Shown: one piece after another, positions 3,956 to 45,052 of the stretch
How the letters are laid out: each line of letters starts with the position of its first letter
Numbering within the stretch: position 1 is the stretch's first letter
Source: a virus
DNA: 64,000 nucleotides
Reading direction: 5' to 3' (one strand)
Virus record (IMG/VR): IMGVR_UViG_3300045886_000052
Span: 1 to 64,000 of that record
Program-made: the position numbers and the translations under genes
Notes under the pieces: model-generated
What the model was told of the DNA's origin: nothing
The model's input: only the letters and a program-made list of their open reading frames with translations
Database searches by the model: none

Positions 3956-5046
3956 TGCCATCTGAGCCCGGAACCCTAAACTTCCCCACGTCGCTCGACG
4001 ACGTCATCAGTCTGGTCGAGGCCGCCAATCATGCCTCGGCGGTACTGAACTCAGGGATCAATAATTCAGTATTGCTGGTCCCGGTTTCGCAGCCATCGGA
4101 ATTTTCCGCGTCGGGCTACGCGACGATTCTCGACGTTGTGCCGAACCCGACAGTGATCGAGATCGTGAAATATACGAGCAAATCCGGCAACGACTTGGTA
4201 GTTCCCACCGGCGGGCGCGGGCAGCAGGGAACCAGCGCCGCAGCGTTCAGCGCCGGCGCGGTCGTTGAGCAGCGGCCCACGCAACGTCATCACGGCGTAT
4301 TGCGCGACGCCATAATTGAGATCGAGAAGAAGATCGGATACGGCAACGTATTCGCGCCGCTCGACGCGTCCGGCACGAATCAGGCAGGCGTCGATAACGA
4401 CTTCTCAGGCGGACGTGGAACGGGCACCGGCATACCCGGCAATATGAGAGTCCGCTACCCGCTGATTGGCGCGACCGGTACGACCCTGCACGCGCTGAGC
4501 AATACCAGCGATGATTTCGTGCCGACCACTAGCGCCTACTCGAACACGTCGAACGGGACGGCGATTGCCAACTCGGCAAGCGAAACGAGTTTGTTTACCG
4601 GCGCCGGGGTAAGCGCCGGATCGACGCGCACGATCGAGGGCGGGATCGCCAGGGCGGGCGCGGTGTATCGAATCGTAATCGCCGGAGACTTCGGCGCGAC
4701 CTCGGGTCCTACCGGTCGCATCAAGTTCAAGCTCGGCTCGACGATCATCGCCGACACCAATACCTTCACGATGCCGAACTGCTCGCCGGGCGCTGGAATC
4801 TACACGATTGAATTCGACCTACTGATCAACTCGGTCGGCGCGACGGGTACGGCATCCGTCAGGGCATTGCGTGGAACGTTCTCTCCAGGTAGCGGCGGAC
4901 AGACACCGACATTCGCGTTTGCGTCAGGGGCGCCAACTGTTGATTTCACGGCTAATCAGACGATGGACATCACGTTTCAATGGGGCACGGCCAACTCGAA
5001 CAATACGATTATTCTGACGATGGCGAGCATTCAGAGGATCAGATAG
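3955..5046 (+). CDS. Tail fibre or tail-tip structural protein
   Basis: A 363-residue protein rich in Gly, Ser, Thr and Ala, with beta-type composition in the C-terminal half, as in phage fibres. It is translationally coupled to the tape measure by a one-base stop/start overlap. No enzymatic motif is visible. A structural role is inferred from position and composition; whether it contacts the host receptor is unknown. Confidence 0.6.
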   Translation: MPSEPGTLNFPTSLDDVISLVEAANHASAVLNSGINNSVLLVPVSQPSEFSASGYATILDVVPNPTVIEIVKYTSKSGNDLVVPTGGRGQQGTSAAAFSAGAVVEQRPTQRHHGVLRDAIIEIEKKIGYGNVFAPLDASGTNQAGVDNDFSGGRGTGTGIPGNMRVRYPLIGATGTTLHALSNTSDDFVPTTSAYSNTSNGTAIANSASETSLFTGAGVSAGSTRTIEGGIARAGAVYRIVIAGDFGATSGPTGRIKFKLGSTIIADTNTFTMPNCSPGAGIYTIEFDLLINSVGATGTASVRALRGTFSPGSGGQTPTFAFASGAPTVDFTANQTMDITFQWGTANSNNTIILTMASIQRIR

Positions 5047-5202
5047 ATGCCGAACGCGTTCGATGATTATGTATGGGACGGCGCTGCGTGGGACGGCGGC
5101 GACGCGATAGACCTCGCGACAGCGTCAGTCGAGGAGATGTGCATTGACTGCGAAGCCGTCTGGGAGATCACGCTCGACGGTGGCGAAGTGGAGGTTTGTT
5201 AG
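5047..5202 (+). CDS. Small acidic protein in the tail operon
   Basis: A 51-residue frame that exactly fills the space between two tail genes: the upstream TAG ends at 5046, this ATG follows at once, and its own TAG abuts the next ATG. The protein is acidic and aromatic (VWDGAAWDGG) with a CIDC pair. Perfect packing without gaps supports it as real. Function unknown. Confidence 0.7.
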   Translation: MPNAFDDYVWDGAAWDGGDAIDLATASVEEMCIDCEAVWEITLDGGEVEVC

Positions 5203-5580
5203 ATGCCGACGAAGGTTTTGGACATAACGACGCTGACCCGGGGCAACGACGTTGTCTTGAAGTTTACCGTCAAAACGACCGTTGATCTGGCGTCCGCGAA
5301 ATTCACGGTCAAGCGCAGCTTCTTGAATGCGGACTCGGTTGCGGCCGTCGCCAAGGTCGTCACGGTGAATCTCACGGCGGACGGGCAAATCACGGACGTT
5401 GGCGGCGCTGACGACTTGGCGATGGTTCAAATTATCCTGGCGAAAGCAGACACCGCTGCCATTCAGGCCGACCTGGATTACGTGTGGGACTTGGAGGTCT
5501 TCGACGCGACGGTTAAAGCGACGACGCCGGTTGGCGGAAGGATCTTCATGCACGAACGCGTGAGAAAGCTGATGGGATAA
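5203..5580 (+). CDS. Tail/baseplate-type beta domain protein (BppU-like pattern)
   Basis: 125 residues. The pattern of a short N-terminal motif, beta strands, TADGQITD and a later WDLEVFDATVK segment resembles the N-terminal domain of upper-baseplate BppU-type proteins. The same architecture recurs in the gene at 62711-63097, so the tail region holds two paralogues. It starts directly after the preceding stop. Confidence 0.55.
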   Translation: MPTKVLDITTLTRGNDVVLKFTVKTTVDLASAKFTVKRSFLNADSVAAVAKVVTVNLTADGQITDVGGADDLAMVQIILAKADTAAIQADLDYVWDLEVFDATVKATTPVGGRIFMHERVRKLMG

Positions 5581-34030: not shown

Positions 34031-34342
34031 ATGCTCAAAACACTCGGTCTCGAAATTATCGAAATCAACAAGGCGAACGGCTGGAATGTCACAACGCCTG
34101 ATGATTGGGGCGATACATACAAAGTCCCTGGCGTGCTGGCGCTGATTCACTCTGAAGTATCAGAAGCGCTTGAGGGCTTCAGGGGCGGCGATAAGGCGAA
34201 CTTCGAGGAAGAGCTTGCCGACGTGCTTATCAGGGTTTTGGATTGCGCCACCGGGCTTGGACTGGACCTGGATACAGCAGTCGCGGCCAAGCTGGACAAG
34301 AACCGGGCGCGCAGTTTTCGCCACGGAGGCAAGCGGCTATGA
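34031..34342 (+). CDS. MazG-like nucleotide pyrophosphohydrolase
   Basis: 103 residues. EVSEALEGFR, EELADVLIRVLD and the C-terminal KLDKNRAR reproduce the EExxE...ExxD helices of MazG-like all-alpha NTP pyrophosphatases. In phages these change the pool of (d)NTPs or ppGpp. ATG behind AAAGGGAAC. Substrate unknown. Confidence 0.75.
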   Translation: MLKTLGLEIIEINKANGWNVTTPDDWGDTYKVPGVLALIHSEVSEALEGFRGGDKANFEEELADVLIRVLDCATGLGLDLDTAVAAKLDKNRARSFRHGGKRL

Positions 34343-34437
34343 AACACGATCTGAATTTCTTTCGTGGGCTTATCTGGGCGGGCGTATTGTCCGCGCCGTT
34401 CTGGGTGGCGGTGATATGGTTGAGTCAGGCCCGATAG
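34339..34437 (+). CDS. 32-residue membrane peptide
   Basis: MKHDLNFFRGL then a Trp-rich hydrophobic helix. The ATG overlaps the MazG-like stop (ATGA). Short single-pass peptides of this type are common between phage early genes. Confidence 0.5.
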   Translation: MKHDLNFFRGLIWAGVLSAPFWVAVIWLSQAR

Positions 34438-34481
34438 TTTTTCTTGCCGCGATCGGCGGCGCAAATAACCAAGGAGTAATT

Positions 34482-35297
34482 ATGAGTACCGCATTGATAA
34501 AGCAGGAACAAGCGAACGGACTGGTTTACAGGCCGGAACAGGTTCAACTGATAAAAGACGTGTACGCGAAAGGCGCAAGCGATAACGAACTGGCGTTGTT
34601 CATTGAGGTCGCGCAGCGCAAGGGACTGGATATATTCAGCCGGCAGGTTCACTTGGTGAAACGATACGACAGCCAATTGCAGCGCGAGGTAATGGAACCG
34701 CAAACCGGCATTGACGGCTACCGCTTAATGGCTGAACGCACCGGCAAATACGAAGGCCAGCTCGGGCCGTTCTGGTGCGGATCGGACGGTGAATGGAAAG
34801 ACGTTTGGCTTAGCGACGCGCCGCCGTCCGCCGCGAAAGTCGGAACGCTGAAAGCCGGCTGTCGCGAACCGTTCTGGGCCGTCGCTCTGTACAAGGAATA
34901 TGTCCAGACGCGCAAGGACGGCCAACCGAATTCAATGTGGAAAAAAATGGCCGCGAACCAGTTGGCCAAGTGCGCCGAGGCGCTGAGTCTGCGCAAGGCG
35001 TTCCCCGGCGATCTGGCCGGTATCTACACGCAAGAGGAAATGGCGCAGGCGTCGAATGTGGCGCCGGTTGAGATAGCGGCGGACGTGGAAGAAGCGGCGG
35101 CTGTTATTGATCCCGACTATGAAGACGCGCGCAACGCCATACTGGAAGAAATGCAGGACATTTATATCGGCAAGGGTAAGACGCAGGAAGAGTGGCTGAA
35201 GTACCGGAAGGGACTGGCCGCGAAGACGTGCGAACAACTGGAAGTAATGTTGGCGAATTGGCAGACCGCTGCCGAGTCCACGAAGAACGCTGGCTGA
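34482..35297 (+). CDS. bet: Bet-type single-strand annealing protein
   Basis: 271 residues from an ATG behind AAGGAGTAATT. The sequence around NELALFIEVAQRKGLDIFSR, MEPQTGIDGYRLMAERTGKY and FWAVALYKEYVQTRKDG is that of phage recombination protein Bet. It anneals complementary single strands during recombination-dependent replication and repair. Its usual exonuclease partner was not recognised nearby. The C-terminal 60 residues are acidic and variable. Confidence 0.9.
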   Translation: MSTALIKQEQANGLVYRPEQVQLIKDVYAKGASDNELALFIEVAQRKGLDIFSRQVHLVKRYDSQLQREVMEPQTGIDGYRLMAERTGKYEGQLGPFWCGSDGEWKDVWLSDAPPSAAKVGTLKAGCREPFWAVALYKEYVQTRKDGQPNSMWKKMAANQLAKCAEALSLRKAFPGDLAGIYTQEEMAQASNVAPVEIAADVEEAAAVIDPDYEDARNAILEEMQDIYIGKGKTQEEWLKYRKGLAAKTCEQLEVMLANWQTAAESTKNAG

Positions 35298-35333: not shown

Positions 35334-36497
35334 ATGGATATTGAAATCGCAAAAATCAGGCAGGATGGCGGGACGCAGCCGCGCGCGCAAATCAATCTAC
35401 TTACGGTTGGCGACTACGCTGAAGAGATGCGCGCGGGCGTTAGGTTTCCCGACGTGGTTGTCTTCTTTGACGGAACGGACTACTGGCTGGCCGACGGGTT
35501 CCATCGAGTTTTGGCGGCGACAGCGGCAAAGTTGAAAGCTATTAACGCCGACGCGCGGCAGGGGACGCGCCGAGATGCCGTTCTATTTAGCGTCGGCGCA
35601 AACGCTAGCCACGGACTGCGGCGCACGCACGAGGACAAGCGCCAAGCCGTGCGGACGCTGCTCGAAGACGAAGAGTGGAGCAAGTGGAGCGACGCAGAGA
35701 TAGCGAGGCGCACCGGCACTAGCCATCCATTTGTAGGCGAGCAACGAAAAATTCTCACTTGTAACGTTACAAGTGAGAATGGCGAGCGTCAGTATACAAC
35801 CAAGCATGGGACACCCGCCGTCATGCATACCGACAATATCGGCAAATCAAGCGTGCTTCTTGATATGGTTCCCGAAAGCGACATCCTGCAGGCCGCAATG
35901 GATATTCGCATTAAGCGCGCCGTGGAAAACCGGGAGAGAATACAGGCTATTAAAGAGCAGCCTATCACTGTCCCTAAAGGAAAGTTCCAAACCATCGTCA
36001 TTGACCCGCCGTGGCCAATGGAAAAGATAGACCGCGACACGCGCCCAAACCAAGTCGGCTTCGACTATCCGACGATGAGCGAAGAAGACCTAATGGACTG
36101 GCCGTTATCTAAATTCGCCGCCGACAATTGCCACCTTTACTTATGGACAACTCACCGCTTTCTACCTATGGCGATGCGGCTTGCTGAACATTGGGGCTTC
36201 ACTTACCAATGCCTGATGACGTGGGTTAAGAACGTTGGAATGACGCCGTATTCATGGATGTATTCAACTGAGCATGTACTGTTCTGTCGGCGCGGCTTCC
36301 TGTCGCTTGAAAAGCTAGGTATGCGCCTGGACTTCCGCGCCAACGTGCGAGAGCACAGCCGCAAGCCCGACATATTTTACGAAATTGTACGTCAGGCGTC
36401 ACCGGGGCCGCGCCTTGATATGTTTAGCCGCGAACCGCGTGAAGGCTTCGAGCAGCACGGCAACGAGGCCGCGAAGTTTCAGGGGGTGACGGCTTGA
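35334..36497 (+). CDS. ParB-like/MT-A70 methyltransferase fusion
   Basis: 387 residues. Residues 1-110 are a ParB/Srx-like domain with DGFHR at 54-58; a short helix-turn-helix region follows (about 116-140). From about 205 an MT-A70 methyltransferase has the catalytic DPPW at 224-227 and continues to the end. Such enzymes usually make N6-methyladenine. A perfect 30-bp palindrome encodes residues 140-149, in the linker. Probably a sequence-specific phage DNA modifier. Confidence 0.8.
   Translation: MDIEIAKIRQDGGTQPRAQINLLTVGDYAEEMRAGVRFPDVVVFFDGTDYWLADGFHRVLAATAAKLKAINADARQGTRRDAVLFSVGANASHGLRRTHEDKRQAVRTLLEDEEWSKWSDAEIARRTGTSHPFVGEQRKILTCNVTSENGERQYTTKHGTPAVMHTDNIGKSSVLLDMVPESDILQAAMDIRIKRAVENRERIQAIKEQPITVPKGKFQTIVIDPPWPMEKIDRDTRPNQVGFDYPTMSEEDLMDWPLSKFAADNCHLYLWTTHRFLPMAMRLAEHWGFTYQCLMTWVKNVGMTPYSWMYSTEHVLFCRRGFLSLEKLGMRLDFRANVREHSRKPDIFYEIVRQASPGPRLDMFSREPREGFEQHGNEAAKFQGVTA
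35751..35780. repeat. Perfect 30-bp palindrome inside a coding region
   Basis: The left half ATTCTCACTTGTAAC is followed at once by its exact reverse complement. It lies in the linker between the DNA-binding and methyltransferase parts of the fusion gene. Candidate binding site for the ParB-like protein itself (autoregulation or centromere-like site), or a strong mRNA hairpin. Confidence 0.8.
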
Positions 36498-37082: not shown

Positions 37083-37790
37083 ATGACCCTCTGGCTTCGA
37101 CTTTATACCGACGTTCTCGACGATCCGAAAGTGCAGCGGCTCGACGGTGAACTGTTCAAAGCCTGGATCAATTTACTTTGTCTCGCCAAAGCAGGTGACG
37201 GCTTGTTGCCGTCCATTGAAGACATAGCGTTCAAACTACGGTCAGGCTCCGAAGAGAACGCAAAACGTCTTACCGATGAATTGGTTAAACGTGGACTGCT
37301 GGACTCGGACGGTATGAACTTAACCCCTCATAACTGGCATGGACGCCAGTTTGACTCGGACAGTTCCACCGAAAGAGTGCAACGCTACCGAAACGTTACA
37401 CGAAACGTTTCTGAAACGTTAGAGAGCAGAGACAGAACAGAGCCAGATCCAGAGCCAGATCCAGAGCAGAGAGCTGCGACTTCGCGCGCAAAGCCGCGCT
37501 CAGTCCGCAAACCGGTTCTTCCTGACGACGAATGGCTGGACAACCTGCAGAAGAACCCGGCTTTTTCTTCGCTAAATGTCCGGCTTTGCTATCACAAAAT
37601 GCTTGCCTGGTGCGAAGTGAATAACAGGCAACCCAGCAGAAGAATGTTTATCAACTGGCTTAATCGCGAAGACAAACCAATGGGTAACGGCAATGGAAAA
37701 ACTCAAACTGGTAAAACGAATGACGCCGCTAAAGACGGCGCTCGAAAAACTACAGAAGACTATGGAATCCGTCCCCCTAGAGAAATTTAG
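37083..37790 (+). CDS. Replication initiator/replisome-organiser-like protein
   Basis: 235 residues. The N-terminal winged-helix-like part (LDDPKVQRLDGELFKAWINL, then VKRGLL) and the middle ERVQRYRNVTRNVSETLE linker are typical of phage replication initiators. Three GAAACGTT repeats lie in that linker, as in lambda O, whose gene contains the origin. A DnaC-like loader gene follows and overlaps it. Confidence 0.7.
   Translation: MTLWLRLYTDVLDDPKVQRLDGELFKAWINLLCLAKAGDGLLPSIEDIAFKLRSGSEENAKRLTDELVKRGLLDSDGMNLTPHNWHGRQFDSDSSTERVQRYRNVTRNVSETLESRDRTEPDPEPDPEQRAATSRAKPRSVRKPVLPDDEWLDNLQKNPAFSSLNVRLCYHKMLAWCEVNNRQPSRRMFINWLNREDKPMGNGNGKTQTGKTNDAAKDGARKTTEDYGIRPPREI
37390..37420. other. Candidate replication origin (iterons)
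   Basis: GAAACGTT at 37390-37397, 37402-37409 and 37413-37420, spaced 12 and 11 bp (one helical turn), followed by AGCCAGATCC-type direct repeats. The whole lies inside the initiator gene, just before the helicase loader gene. Confidence 0.55.
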
Positions 37791-38451
37791 GCCGGCGGAA
37801 GAGATATTCACCTGCGTTACCTGTTCCGATACCGGCTGGGTTGTCATTGCTGATCGCGGCGCGAAACAGTGTGAGTGTTTGCGGACGAAGCAGCGGGTAA
37901 GACTACTGGACAGAATACCGCCAGAGTACCGCGGCTTGGATCTCGAAACTATCCGTCCCGACGCTACCCGGCACCCGGATCAAGAGTCACTGGTAAACGC
38001 GTTGCGCGCCGATCCCGATATGAGCCTGCTGTTATCCGGCCGCGTCGGCTGCGGTAAAAGTCTCATCGGTTGGCTTCTCTACAAACGCGCGATAGAAGCC
38101 GATCGGCCAAGCGTCGCATTGCCGTTGGCCGAACTACTCGGACAGTTTCGCCGCTACGAATGCGGGTCCGATACGCTGCCGGCGGTAACGTCGGAAAACC
38201 TGCGCGACAGCCGCCGCTGGTTTCTCTTCCTTGACGAATTCGATAAAACGCGTCCGACAGAGTTCGCGGGCGAACAACTGTTTTTGCTTATGGACGCGAT
38301 TTACACGTACAGACACCAGTTAGTCGTAACGTCCAATGTCGGCAAAGACGAACTGCGGTTTAAGTGGTCGCAAGCGAGCGAACAGTACGGCGTCTCGATA
38401 ATGCGGCGCCTGCTGGAATTGAACAGTGTGCGCTACAAGGAAATGTTTTGA
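37693..38451 (+). CDS. DnaC-like helicase loader
   Basis: 252 residues. N-terminal Cys pairs (Cys41, Cys44, Cys60, Cys62: CVTCSDTGW, CECLRT) form the zinc site of DnaC/DnaI-type loaders; Walker A GRVGCGKS at 116-123, Walker B WFLFLDEFDK, sensor 1 LVVTSN. It should load a host DnaB-type helicase on the phage origin. It overlaps the initiator gene by 98 bases; starts at 37720 or 37762 are possible. Confidence 0.85.
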   Translation: MEKLKLVKRMTPLKTALEKLQKTMESVPLEKFRPAEEIFTCVTCSDTGWVVIADRGAKQCECLRTKQRVRLLDRIPPEYRGLDLETIRPDATRHPDQESLVNALRADPDMSLLLSGRVGCGKSLIGWLLYKRAIEADRPSVALPLAELLGQFRRYECGSDTLPAVTSENLRDSRRWFLFLDEFDKTRPTEFAGEQLFLLMDAIYTYRHQLVVTSNVGKDELRFKWSQASEQYGVSIMRRLLELNSVRYKEMF

Positions 38452-40060: not shown

Positions 40061-40479
40061 CCGACCGTATCACCACAACCGAATACCGCAACCTGCGGCG
40101 CGCGTCCGAGTCGCGGCTTGAGTTCACTATCCCCGGCCTGCGCGTCGTCAGCGAAGCCAACCTGCGCGACTCATGGCCTGCGCGGTTCCGTCGCAAGAGA
40201 GCGCAGCAATTTGAGGTCCACGCCGAATGGAAGCGGAACGCGCGCGGCGTCAAGATTACTCTTCCCTGCGTCGTGCGATTGACTCGCATTGGCCCGCAGC
40301 GGCTCGATGACGACAACCTCGGCTCTGCGTTCAAGGGGGTTAGGGATCAGATCGCCAAAGAGATAGGCGTCGATGACGGCAGCGACCGGATCAAGTTCGA
40401 GTATGCGCAGTTGGCGGTGGGCAAAAGAATGTATGGGGTGCAGGTGCAAATTTATTGCGGGGAAACAAGCCAGTGCTAA
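40057..40479 (+). CDS. rusA: RusA-like Holliday junction resolvase
   Basis: 140 residues. RLDDDNLGSAFKGVRDQIAK followed by EIGVDDGSDRIKFEYA contains the conserved Asp residues of RusA endonucleases. It would resolve recombination or replication junctions produced by the Bet system. Overlaps neighbours at both ends. Confidence 0.85.
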   Translation: MTDRITTTEYRNLRRASESRLEFTIPGLRVVSEANLRDSWPARFRRKRAQQFEVHAEWKRNARGVKITLPCVVRLTRIGPQRLDDDNLGSAFKGVRDQIAKEIGVDDGSDRIKFEYAQLAVGKRMYGVQVQIYCGETSQC

Positions 40480-41459
40480 ATGCGCCATTTCCATATTTCG
40501 GAGGCAAGTCGCGCGCGGCTGAACTGATCTGGTCGCGATTCGGTAGAGTCGTCAATTACGTCGAGCCCTTCTTTGGTTCCGGCGCTGTCCTTCTTGGCCG
40601 TCCGCGTCCGTTCGCAGGCGTGGAGACGGTCAACGATATAGACGGGCTGCTTGCGAACTTCTGGCGGGCGTTACAGCGCGATCCTGAAGCGGTCGCATTC
40701 CACGCCGACAACCCGGTAAATGAAAACGACCTGCACGCGCGCCATATCCGGCTCGTCGAGAACCGCGAAACAACCTCGCGCAGGCTTGACGGCGACCCGG
40801 ATTACTTCGACGCCAAACTTGCGGGTTGGTGGGTTTGGGGTATTGCGTGCTGGATCGGCTCCGGCTGGTGCAGCGGCAGCGGCCCCTGGCGCGCAGTCGA
40901 AGACGCCGAAGGCTTTCGCCAGCTAGTCCACCTTGGCGATCAGGGACGGGGCGTGAACCGCCAGCTAGTCCACCTTGGCAATCAGGGCCAGGGCGTGAAC
41001 CGCAAGCGAGTCGAGTTGATCGAATATTTTTCAGAACTTGCCGACCGCCTGCGCGAAGTGCGCGTCTGCTGCGGCGATTGGCGGCGCGTCACCGGGCCGA
41101 GTGTGACGACGAAGCATGGCCTAACCGCAATGTTGCTCGACCCGCCATATGCTGACACCGCCGGGCGGCAGGCGGAACTCTACGCAAAAGATTGCCTGCG
41201 GATCGCGCACGAGGTTCGAGAGTGGGCGATTGCGAACGGCGACGACCCGCTTATGCGCATCGCGCTTTGCGGATACGAAGGCGAGCACGACATGCCCGGC
41301 AGTTGGGAATGCGCCGAATGGCATGCGCGCGGCGGCTATGATGGACAGAGCAAAGATAAATCCACAATCGGACAGAACCGAGCGAAAGAGCGGGTGTGGT
41401 TTTCGCCATATTGCATACAGGAAACGCTGCCGCTTTTTATGGAGGCAACCAATGGATGA
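40473..41459 (+). CDS. DNA adenine methyltransferase (D12/Dam type)
   Basis: 328 residues from a GTG behind GGGGAAAC. PYFGGKSRAAELIW and YVEPFFGSGAV (motif I) at the start, LLDPPYADTAG (motif IV) later: an alpha-class N6-adenine methyltransferase. In the middle a 42-bp tandem duplication encodes RQLVHLGDQGRGVN twice, a repeat type known from phage members of this family. Orphan enzyme. Confidence 0.85.
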   Translation: MLNAPFPYFGGKSRAAELIWSRFGRVVNYVEPFFGSGAVLLGRPRPFAGVETVNDIDGLLANFWRALQRDPEAVAFHADNPVNENDLHARHIRLVENRETTSRRLDGDPDYFDAKLAGWWVWGIACWIGSGWCSGSGPWRAVEDAEGFRQLVHLGDQGRGVNRQLVHLGNQGQGVNRKRVELIEYFSELADRLREVRVCCGDWRRVTGPSVTTKHGLTAMLLDPPYADTAGRQAELYAKDCLRIAHEVREWAIANGDDPLMRIALCGYEGEHDMPGSWECAEWHARGGYDGQSKDKSTIGQNRAKERVWFSPYCIQETLPLFMEATNG

Positions 41460-41688
41460 CGTAATTATTTTCCTATTCTTCCTTCTCGCCGTCGTCGTCG
41501 TCGTCTCGATGGTCGTCGCCGCCTACCGTGGCGGCAGGAAAGAGGGCTACGAAGAGGGCGTCGCGTTCGGGATCTTGTCCGAGCGGCTGCGGCGGCTCGA
41601 ACTGGAGCGCGAAGTGGAGGACAAAATGGTAAGGCGGGCGATGCGGGGCGAGGAAGACGAGTTTTCAGAGACGGAGATTGACGCCTGA
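41452..41688 (+). CDS. Single-pass membrane protein with cytoplasmic helix
   Basis: 78 residues: an N-terminal membrane helix (IIFLFFLLAVVVVVSMVVA), a Gly-rich hinge and a charged helix (ILSERLRRLELEREVEDK). ATG behind GGAGG and overlapping the methyltransferase stop. Confidence 0.6.
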   Translation: MDDVIIFLFFLLAVVVVVSMVVAAYRGGRKEGYEEGVAFGILSERLRRLELEREVEDKMVRRAMRGEEDEFSETEIDA

Positions 41689-41727
41689 TATGGCGCTTTG
41701 CAGTGTTGCGGATTATTGGAGGAGGTA

Positions 41728-42027
41728 ATGGGAAAGCATTGGAGGAGTCGAGGCATTGATGACGCATCGGAGTGGCTCTACAAGAATCTTTTGGAGAGAC
41801 AGGGCGGCGCATGTATCTGCGGAAAACCCGCGATGCCGGACGGGGAGACGCTGGTGCTTGATCACAGTCACCGAACAGGAAAGGCGCGCGCCGTGCTTTG
41901 CATTCCTTGCAATCTAAATTTAGGGCGCATTGAACATGGTAAGACAAACGCAGTTTTTAACTCGGGATGGTCATATTTTGAAAAGCGCGAGGTAGACCCG
42001 GAGATAGTCGAGTCTCTGATTGACTAG
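41728..42027 (+). CDS. HNH endonuclease, phage EndoVII-like
   Basis: 99 residues from an ATG behind GGAGGAGGTA. CICGKP, LVLDHSHRTGKARAVLC and PCNLNLG give the Cys-pair/His-Asp core of recombination endonuclease VII-type HNH proteins. Compared with T4 endonuclease VII it is the minimal nuclease unit. It could debranch DNA or act in packaging. Confidence 0.8.
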   Translation: MGKHWRSRGIDDASEWLYKNLLERQGGACICGKPAMPDGETLVLDHSHRTGKARAVLCIPCNLNLGRIEHGKTNAVFNSGWSYFEKREVDPEIVESLID

Positions 42028-42137
42028 CCTCCGCCTCAATGCCCATTGCTGAGCCACAGAGGGCGCTGGCTGAACGAACGGCGTCTGGGGCGGGGGATGG
42101 TATGCCGAAATCGGCGGCGGGCTTCTATGGCGAAATT

Positions 42138-42791
42138 ATGACGAAAGGCAAACCGAGACTTTTAGACCTCTTTTGCGGCGCCGGTGGGTGTACTGCCGGA
42201 TACCAGCGCGCGGGGTTCTGGGTTCGCGGCGTGGATATAAAACCGCAGCCGAGATATTGCGGGGATGAGTTCGTGCAGGCTGACGCGCTGGAATATCTGC
42301 AAGGGCTGATTGATTCGGGAGAGGTTGAAGAGTTCGACGCGATACACGCGAGCCCGCCGTGTCAGGGCTACGCGGCAACAAAGGTGCTAAACCCAACAGA
42401 ACACCCGCTGCTTCTAGAAGACACGCGCCGGCTGTGCAATGAAAGCGGCAGGTTCTACGTGCTTGAAAACGTACCGGGCGCGCCGCTGCTGAATCCTGCG
42501 CGGCTGAACGGGCAACTCTTTGGCTTAATGGTGGACAGAGAACGCTGGTTTGAGTGTGGCGGCTTTGAAGTGCCATTCGTGCTTCTGCCATCACCACGTA
42601 AGGCCGTGAAAATGGGGCGGCAAGTGCGAGAGGGCGACGTTATACAAGTCGTCGGTAATTTTAGCGGCGTTGATTACGCGCGCCGGGCAATGGGTGTTGA
42701 TTGGATGGTTCGTAATGAACTCTCGCAAGCAATTCCCCCGGCCTACACCGAATTTATAGGCAAGCAACTGATTGAGGCAATAACGCGATGA
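42138..42791 (+). CDS. C5-cytosine DNA methyltransferase
   Basis: 217 residues: motif I LLDLFCGAGGCTAGY, catalytic PC in SPPCQGYAATK, ENV in VLENVPGAP. It is short for the family, with a compact target-recognition region, as in phage orphan enzymes. The start at 42138 gives the usual N-terminus; upstream ATGs at 42102 and 42039 are possible. No restriction partner adjacent. Confidence 0.85.
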   Translation: MTKGKPRLLDLFCGAGGCTAGYQRAGFWVRGVDIKPQPRYCGDEFVQADALEYLQGLIDSGEVEEFDAIHASPPCQGYAATKVLNPTEHPLLLEDTRRLCNESGRFYVLENVPGAPLLNPARLNGQLFGLMVDRERWFECGGFEVPFVLLPSPRKAVKMGRQVREGDVIQVVGNFSGVDYARRAMGVDWMVRNELSQAIPPAYTEFIGKQLIEAITR

Positions 42792-44162: not shown

Positions 44163-44223
44163 GCATAGCGCAATCTCAACAATTGCCGGTGAGGGCTTAT
44201 GGCCCGATCCGGGAGTCGTTGAG
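44163..44223 (+). ncRNA. Structured RNA element, tandem copy 1
   Basis: After GCATAGCGCAAT, CTCAAC...TTGCCGG (44175-44189) pairs with CCGGGAGTCGTTGAG (44209-44223), with an inner GGGC/GCCC stem. Conserved TGAG and AT bases flank the inner stem in both copies. Confidence 0.55.
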
Positions 44224-44285
44224 GCTCCGAACGCGGCGAGGCGGCGCAACGCGCGCCGAGGTTTTGCCTTGTGACGCGGAGCACA

Positions 44286-44350
44286 GCATAGAGCAATCTT
44301 CAACGATTGCCGGTGAGAAGTCGTCAGGCTTCAATCCGGGAGTTGTTGAA
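44286..44350 (+). ncRNA. Structured RNA element, tandem copy 2
   Basis: Same fold as copy 1: TTCAAC...TTGCCGG (44299-44313) pairs with CCGGGAGTTGTTGAA (44336-44350), with an inner GAAG/CTTC stem. Compared with copy 1 the C-G pair becomes T-A and the inner stem changes on both sides, keeping pairing. It ends 15 bases before the ATG at 44366. Confidence 0.6.
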
Positions 44351-44365
44351 ACAGAAAGGAGAATT

Positions 44366-45052
44366 ATGATCCAGGAAGTCGAAGTCGCAAACTTGATTTT
44401 AGATTACAACATTTATCCGCGAACCGCCGTTCAGGATGTCCACGTTAGATCGATGATCGAAGCGGGCGAGTCGGGCGTCACGTTTCCGCCTATTCTCGTT
44501 GATCACAAATCAATGCGAATCGTTGATGGTTTTCATCGCTACGCTCGCGCAATCAAGATCGGCCAGAAAACGATTCAAGCCGAATTGCGCACATTCAAGA
44601 ATGAGCAGGAAATCTTTGAGGCGGCCGTAGCGGCGAACGCCAACCACGGGAGACCCTACGCCCCTTTTGACCGGGCGCGGATTATTTCCATCGGCCTGCA
44701 ACTGAAAGTATCAAAGCAGAAACTTGCCGCCGCGCTCAGCATGCCGGTTAGCCGAGTGGAAGAAATCCGCCTCAGTTTCGCAAAGGTTGGCAGGGATGAT
44801 GAGCCGACAGAGCCGCTGAAGATGACGATTCGCAATCAGTTTCAGGGCAAGCGACTGACGCACGCACAGGCGCAGGCGCAGCGCAAGCTCGGCGGACAGC
44901 AGGCCACGTTCTACGCGAATCAACTCGTGATTCTGATCGAGAATGATCTATTGAACGTGAAGAACCCGAATATTCTGGCGACGATGCATAAACTGGCATC
45001 GTTGATTCTGGATCGAGTTCCGATGCCGGAGACAATGAAAGACGCGGCTTAA
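44366..45052 (+). CDS. ParB-like protein
   Basis: 228 residues behind AAAGGAG. IVDGFHRYARAI is the ParB/Srx DGxHR motif, followed by a helix-turn-helix region (SKQKLAAALSMPVSRVEEIR). Related to the N-terminal domain of the fusion at 35334-36497 but without a methyltransferase part. The mRNA leader holds two structured elements. Confidence 0.7.
   Translation: MIQEVEVANLILDYNIYPRTAVQDVHVRSMIEAGESGVTFPPILVDHKSMRIVDGFHRYARAIKIGQKTIQAELRTFKNEQEIFEAAVAANANHGRPYAPFDRARIISIGLQLKVSKQKLAAALSMPVSRVEEIRLSFAKVGRDDEPTEPLKMTIRNQFQGKRLTHAQAQAQRKLGGQQATFYANQLVILIENDLLNVKNPNILATMHKLASLILDRVPMPETMKDAA

Follow-up and report, generated by a model that had tools for sequence, protein, structure and literature searches.

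A perfect palindrome inside a phage ParB-methyltransferase gene is probably the recognition site of the encoded protein

ParB of the ParABS partition system and Noc have a common layout, in which a ParB_N fold is followed by a helix-turn-helix (HTH), and both recognize dyad-symmetric DNA sites, parS and NBS, respectively. In Caulobacter ParB, residue R173 contacts parS, and the substitution R173Q enables a contact with adenine 1 of NBS (PMC7383237). Phages commonly encode orphan ParB-like proteins, which are treated, together with methyltransferase fusions, in a survey of the ParB-CTPase fold from December 2025 (PMC12704722). As far as its main text goes, this survey names no DNA target, and the terms 'palindrom' and 'inverted repeat' are absent from it; likewise, we found in the open-licence literature no report of the DNA that orphan phage ParB-like proteins bind, nor of a cognate site within the gene of a ParB-like protein.

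The locus described here lies in a stretch of 64,000 nucleotides (the window), which comprises positions 1 to 64,000 of the 68,079-bp viral record IMGVR_UViG_3300045886_000052 (IMG/VR). Its genes include those of an integrase, RecT, a DnaC-like loader, terminase, portal and the major head protein, so that the source is probably a temperate tailed phage. A preliminary description of the window had reported a perfect 30-bp palindrome within a ParB-methyltransferase gene, had judged it too rare for chance and had placed it in the codons for the linker between the DNA-binding and methyltransferase parts. All of this was borne out. Positions 35751-35780 (ATTCTCACTTGTAAC/GTTACAAGTGAGAAT) form two 15-nt arms of 100% complementarity (15/15 pairs) with a spacer of 0, and no perfect inverted repeat of the window is longer; given the window's base composition, 64 kb should contain 8e-5 perfect palindromes of 15 pairs by chance. 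They lie in the open reading frame 35334-36497 and code for residues 140-149 (ILTCNVTSEN), with the HTH on one side and the MT-A70 domain on the other. The features of the locus are, in window coordinates:

34170..35297, + strand: neighbouring gene of a RecT-like annealing protein (phrog_2780, E 8e-65)
35334..36497, + strand: gene of the ParB_N-HTH-hairpin-MT-A70 fusion, 387 aa (open reading frame; domain profile matches)
35334..35618, + strand: ParB_N (ParB/sulfiredoxin fold), residues 1-95 (conservation in 147 proteins; structure-profile matches)
35676..35747, + strand: HTH, residues 115-138 (mutual information and recognition table; motif alignment to ParB GKS-R173)
35751..35780, no strand: perfect 30-bp palindrome (inverted-repeat scan and chance expectation)
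35755..35776, no strand: conserved 22-bp site TCACT-TGTAAC-GTTACA-AGTGA (family comparison)
35755-35759 and 35772-35776: outer pentamers of the 22-bp site, where complementarity ends across the family
35760-35765 and 35766-35771: inner half-sites of the 22-bp site, whose arms covary across the family
35790..35846, + strand: conserved motif 3' of the site (QYTTKHGTPAVMHTDNIGK), residues 153-171, which covaries with pentamer positions 1-3
35985..36467, + strand: MT-A70 adenine methyltransferase domain with DPPW motif, residues 218-378 (PF05063 match)
37693..38451, + strand: neighbouring gene of a DnaC-like helicase loader (phrog_50, E 3e-11)

In the 387-aa protein, residues 218-378 match MT-A70 (PF05063) with an E-value of 1.4e-16, and residues 1-146 match the ParB-like phrog_1033 (E 4.5e-15). 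Individual proteins of the family described below fall under Pfam's cut-off for PF02195; their ParB_N family profile matches the ParB structures 7o0n and 7bnk with E-values of about 1e-6. The ParB_N boxes GGTQxR, DGFHR and NxxHG are near-invariant, R58 being present in 146/147 proteins, and DGFHR departs from the canonical GERR. The window also holds a second ParB-like gene (phrog_1033; 44183-45049, + strand), in which we looked for a palindrome and found none, and, a few kb 3' of the fusion gene, two further genes for DNA methyltransferases (40455-42791, + strand).

A palindrome scan of relatives returned different palindromes at or near the same position in several homologs. Among more than 550 loci met in a profile scan of viral contigs, we collected 80 homologs, most of which carry a near-perfect palindrome of 20-29 bp directly 3' of the HTH codons. 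When palindrome scores were averaged over the 79 distinct genes, the bin of residues 141-150 was the only one with an elevated mean; 48 genes reach a score of at least 8 there, versus 1 after synonymous codon permutation. The same arrangement occurs in records assigned to Alphaproteobacteria, Betaproteobacteria, Planctomycetes, Acidobacteria, Cyanobacteria, Chloroflexi and Fibrobacteres. Two further scans led to a non-redundant set of 147 ParB-HTH proteins (<90% identity), in whose genes at least 10 of the 12 possible pairs form at the site in 90 cases, against 2.7 expected when synonymous codons are shuffled. The preliminary description had suggested looking for synonymous changes that destroy the palindrome in relatives; what we see is the opposite, as the sequence changes and its self-complementarity is kept.

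In 109 of the 147 genes, an outer pentamer is followed by 12-14 bases and then by its complement, where TCACT, TATCT, CATCT or ATACT were accepted with at most one mismatch, motifs that were picked post hoc from the data; the outer motif is absent in the other 38, some of which have other palindromes, while others, L021 and L041 among them, seem to have lost theirs. The pentamers are separated by 13 bases in 64 genes, by 12 in 41 and by 14 in 4. Since these 109 genes were selected by their outer pentamers only, the inner pairs provide an unbiased test. In the 64 genes with a spacer of 13, the pairs d0 (innermost) to d5 show complementarity in 44, 55, 54, 58, 64 and 63 genes, compared to means of 17-29 of 64 for shuffled arms, a null that carries no phylogenetic correction and for which the leave-out test given below covers kinship only in part. 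At d4, the pairs are C-G in 20 genes, G-C in 20, T-A in 15 and A-T in 9. Each of the three codon phases occurs for both arms, depending on the gene, and the encoded peptide is therefore not what is conserved. As the inner arms vary in four pair types, yet remain complementary down to the innermost pair and in all phases, the comparison of sequences identifies the palindrome as a DNA dyad that is conserved in a large family, rather than as a peculiarity of the coding sequence or a hairpin of the RNA. In the window, the conserved part is the central 22 bp (35755-35776; TCACT-N12-AGTGA). The family's flanks past the pentamers are not complementary above the shuffled level, so that the last 4 bp on each side of the 30-bp palindrome are probably due to chance.

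These observations bear on two simple explanations. The linker is hypervariable and tolerates insertion, and could thus harbour a chance palindrome or an artefact of template switching; given that at least 90 divergent genes have a palindrome at the same spot and show compensatory changes, we consider this explanation practically negligible. Alternatively, the complementary arms would allow the transcript to fold, and a hairpin in the mRNA could serve in attenuation, pausing or translational control. A hairpin loop, however, needs at least three unpaired bases, whereas the innermost pairs beside a centre of 0-1 nt are kept; moreover, bases of the arms covary with residues of the HTH and copies of the site also occur outside the gene, as detailed below, which makes an RNA function highly improbable.

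The coupling became apparent when we computed background-corrected mutual information for residues 1-140 of the protein against the bases of the half-site, numbered from the outermost T of TCACT as position 1. The top couplings (residue-position) all fall into the HTH: 131-7, 121-6, 132-8 and 132-9, 133-10 and 133-11, 136-10, and 137-11; in the window protein, the coupled HTH residues are A121, S130, H131, P132, F133, E136 and Q137. For the inner bases, only the HTH shows coupling (Z of 25 for residue 131 and position 7, 19 for 121 and 6, and 23 for 133 and 11), ParB_N columns being low, and in a linkage control, the third-codon (wobble) bases of nearby conserved residues reach a Z of 3.4 at most. 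The resulting table reads like a code. At residue 131, H goes with G at position 7 in 54/60 cases, E with C in 34/34, D with C in 24/24 and Q with A in 19/24; R121 goes with G at position 6 in 121/128 cases; and at residue 132, P is found with A at position 9 (44/44) and K with G at positions 8 and 9 (24/24 each). As a set of sequence correlations, these pairings (R-G, E/D-C, Q-A, K-G) are chemically sensible.

They are also predictive. When the training set was restricted to proteins of less than 60% identity, position 7 was predicted from residue 131 with 85% accuracy (baseline 26%), position 6 from residue 121 with 87% (baseline 63%) and position 11 from residue 133 with 70% (baseline 39%). 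Two loci outside the training set, L386 and L399, fit the code, and the same holds for L384, which is another copy of the gene of L164. The window follows it at H131-G7, P132-A9 and F133-C11, its A121-T6 pairing being too rare to test. Finally, the GKS-R173 motif of ParB aligns with residue 131 (GVS/GTS-H131 here), and in this motif alignment R173 and Q173 of ParB obey the same residue-base rule as residue 131.

The covariation between HTH and palindrome, together with the R173/Q173 rule, makes it very probable (we would put it at roughly 0.8) that the protein has its cognate recognition site, with two-fold symmetry, in the palindrome of its own gene. The preliminary suggestion that it is the target of the encoded protein thus finds strong support in the residue-base correlations. 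A dimer would dock with one HTH on each inner half-site (positions 6-11), whose bases would be read by residues 121 and 131-133; for this step, the covariation argues strongly. Less firmly, the outer pentamer (TCACT, TATCT or ATACT) may be read by the conserved motif 3' of the site: its positions 1-3 couple to this motif with Z up to 52 and to upstream residues only weakly (Z at most 7), a coupling that derives from few clades and three main sequence classes and may in part reflect linkage. With the site in the variable linker codons between the two reading modules, specificity and site would travel as one cassette.

The C-terminal partner varies across the family and comprises MT-A70, Dam-type or D12 domains, possibly RuvC, a coiled coil, or no domain at all. 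This variability concerns another proposal of the preliminary description, namely that the palindrome is itself the methylated sequence, which here would make it the target of the fused MT-A70 domain. The gene does code for a methyltransferase; nevertheless, a recognizable methyltransferase motif is present in only 10/109 site-bearing proteins, the site architecture is unchanged with different methyltransferases or none, and the inner sequence differs among phages, tracking the HTH instead. A role as methylation target is therefore very unlikely. On the other hand, a constant site architecture with exchangeable partners would suit the delivery of different activities in cis.

What the protein does at its site may be judged from copies elsewhere. 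In the window's phage, no second copy with up to 5 mismatches was found in the whole 68,079-bp record, and the exact 16-bp core has 13 matches in viral contigs, by our estimate about the chance number for that amount of DNA. The CTTGTAA half-sites noted earlier next to the terminase genes (51181, 53163) did not hold up either, with 7 occurrences against 3.6 expected, which is at chance level, and neither of the two is palindromic. We searched 20 records, each with its own site (G003 was not assessable this way). The in-gene copy is the only one found in 13/20, the window included and with G021, whose even-spaced site has one copy by a separate result, counted among them. Extra copies with 0-3 mismatches occur in 5/20 (G061, G029, G088, G028 and G016), while G066 has weaker matches only; the extra copies keep the same inner sequence, with a shuffled null of about 0. 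In the case of G061, nine copies all fall on one 40-kb contig (C570, L334/L335) of a 9.5-Mb Coleofasciculus metagenome-assembled genome; this contig has phage-like genes, including terminase and tail proteins as read by eye. Several of its copies sit directly between late genes, an arrangement that resembles a regulon or a series of sites for loading. Copies are clustered in G029, a 30-kb element with five of them, which recur at the ends of the contig with a period of about 80 bp; its ParB-like gene is directly preceded by a ParA-like gene. Three phages have two copies each. Next to terminase or other packaging genes, a second full copy is found in two phages other than that of the window, and in one phage a second copy lies just upstream of a ribosome-binding site. 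Tandem in-gene copies, two or three in frame and 66 bp apart, are confined to a few Planctomycetes genes; in L336 (2901-4085, - strand) and L166, three or two such copies form a 22-aa repeat (SSLINCISEN...). Besides its usual site, L070 has two more long palindromes, of 26 and 25 bp, within the codons for the C-terminal residues 211-230.

The site might be an intragenic operator and nothing else, at which the bound protein road-blocks its own operon in negative autoregulation, with neither spreading nor loading in cis. The solitary in-gene copy in 13/20 records and the copy ahead of a ribosome-binding site speak for this, whereas the dispersed copies among late genes in some phages, and the near-invariant nucleotide boxes of ParB_N, which a plain repressor would not need, speak against it. 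We see it as a possible explanation, though a somewhat doubtful one in this exclusive form; since the in-gene copy stands alone in most phages, autoregulation is either an alternative or a compatible second role, and a protein bound within its own gene would feed back on expression.

These boxes, the arrays confined to the phage contig in some elements and the varying C-terminal partner lead us to favour a parS-like loading role, to which we give about even odds; the preliminary description had proposed a centromere-like loading site as well as autoregulation, and either may apply. The ParB_N fold would close at the site on the phage's own DNA and thereby hold or spread its C-terminal partner in cis, in the window the MT-A70 methyltransferase; nucleotide binding and clamp spreading are assumed here from homology. 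Classical ParABS partition is unlikely for most family members, as ParA is almost always absent beside the gene: the ParA motif KGGxGK(T/S) was found next to 1/80 genes (L108), 1/61 upstream neighbours was ParA-like, and there was no ParA match among the window's open reading frames scanned near the gene.

A further possibility is a replication origin within the gene of its initiator, as is the case for ori-lambda in gene O (PMC6022878), where the site likewise lies in linker codons between a DNA-binding and a C-terminal part. The window fits this insofar as RecT is encoded upstream and a DnaC-like loader downstream. It has one dyad and no iterons, however; in nine records, the extremes of cumulative GC skew miss the site, and no AT-rich region is consistently present, while L051 has an O-like initiator of its own directly downstream. 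In view of the missing skew signal and this initiator, we deem an origin unlikely.

Returning to a site that loads its own protein, we tentatively propose a broader picture: mobile elements might encode a ParB-type, nucleotide-gated clamp together with its own loading site, in frame between two reading segments, as a lock-and-key cassette. Loaded in cis on the element's DNA, the clamp could mark self DNA by way of exchangeable effectors (methyltransferases of the MT-A70, Dam or D12 type, perhaps RuvC). Unrelated families of HTH methyltransferases, in which palindromes also abut the HTH codons, may follow the same principle. In a distant ParB_N/MT-A70 fusion (L019, open reading frame 4068-5525), we observed a different perfect 28-bp palindrome (TAAAGGTGCACCACGTGGTGCACCTTTA; 4538-4565) directly 3' of the likely HTH, as a single copy in a 10.5-kb locus. 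Methyltransferases without ParB_N, which have another N-terminal domain, can also have palindromes, just before an HTH-like segment:

L015 (= L378), 4733-4757: palindrome before the HTH-like segment of a non-ParB methyltransferase
L375, 1738-1762: palindrome before the HTH-like segment of a non-ParB methyltransferase

Few relatives of these were found, and among them the palindrome is weaker in L376 and L020 and absent in L377.

If the palindrome is the cognate site, about a hundred proteins, encoded by phages and other mobile elements, have a target that can be read straight from their genes. We thus propose a DNA target for orphan ParB-fold phage proteins with methyltransferase fusions; the residue-to-base code makes predictions, and the question of what these proteins bind becomes directly testable. 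The family offers many naturally matched pairs of HTH and site for the study or design of ParB-type specificity and suggests how specificity could shift without loss of the partner site. It also exemplifies strong selection on a coding sequence at the level of DNA, which escapes gene annotation.

Compared with known systems, the family belongs to the same broad class as the proteins of the ParB-CTPase-fold survey, in so far as that source describes them: orphan, linked to mobile elements and fused to methyltransferases. Its ParB_N boxes and an HTH that, judging by covariation, reads a dyad with the residue after GxS would place it in the ParB/Noc superfamily, and at the recognition residue aligned with R173/Q173 it resembles ParB-parS down to the rule by which a base is read (PMC7383237). 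Unlike in ParABS, the site lies inside the gene, its specificity differs from phage to phage, ParA is missing in nearly all cases and the C-terminus is formed by a methyltransferase or another domain; with 22-23 bp and two read zones, the site is also longer than parS (about 16 bp). StrR-like activators similarly combine an N-terminal ParB-like domain with an HTH into a sequence-specific regulator, but regulate antibiotic gene clusters, unlike the proteins described here (PMC10886168). The nearest architectural precedent, by analogy, is ori-lambda in gene O: there too, protein-binding dyads occupy linker codons in the gene of their own binder, although lambda O is an unrelated protein and ori-lambda, with four iterons and an AT-rich region, is a proven origin (PMC6022878).
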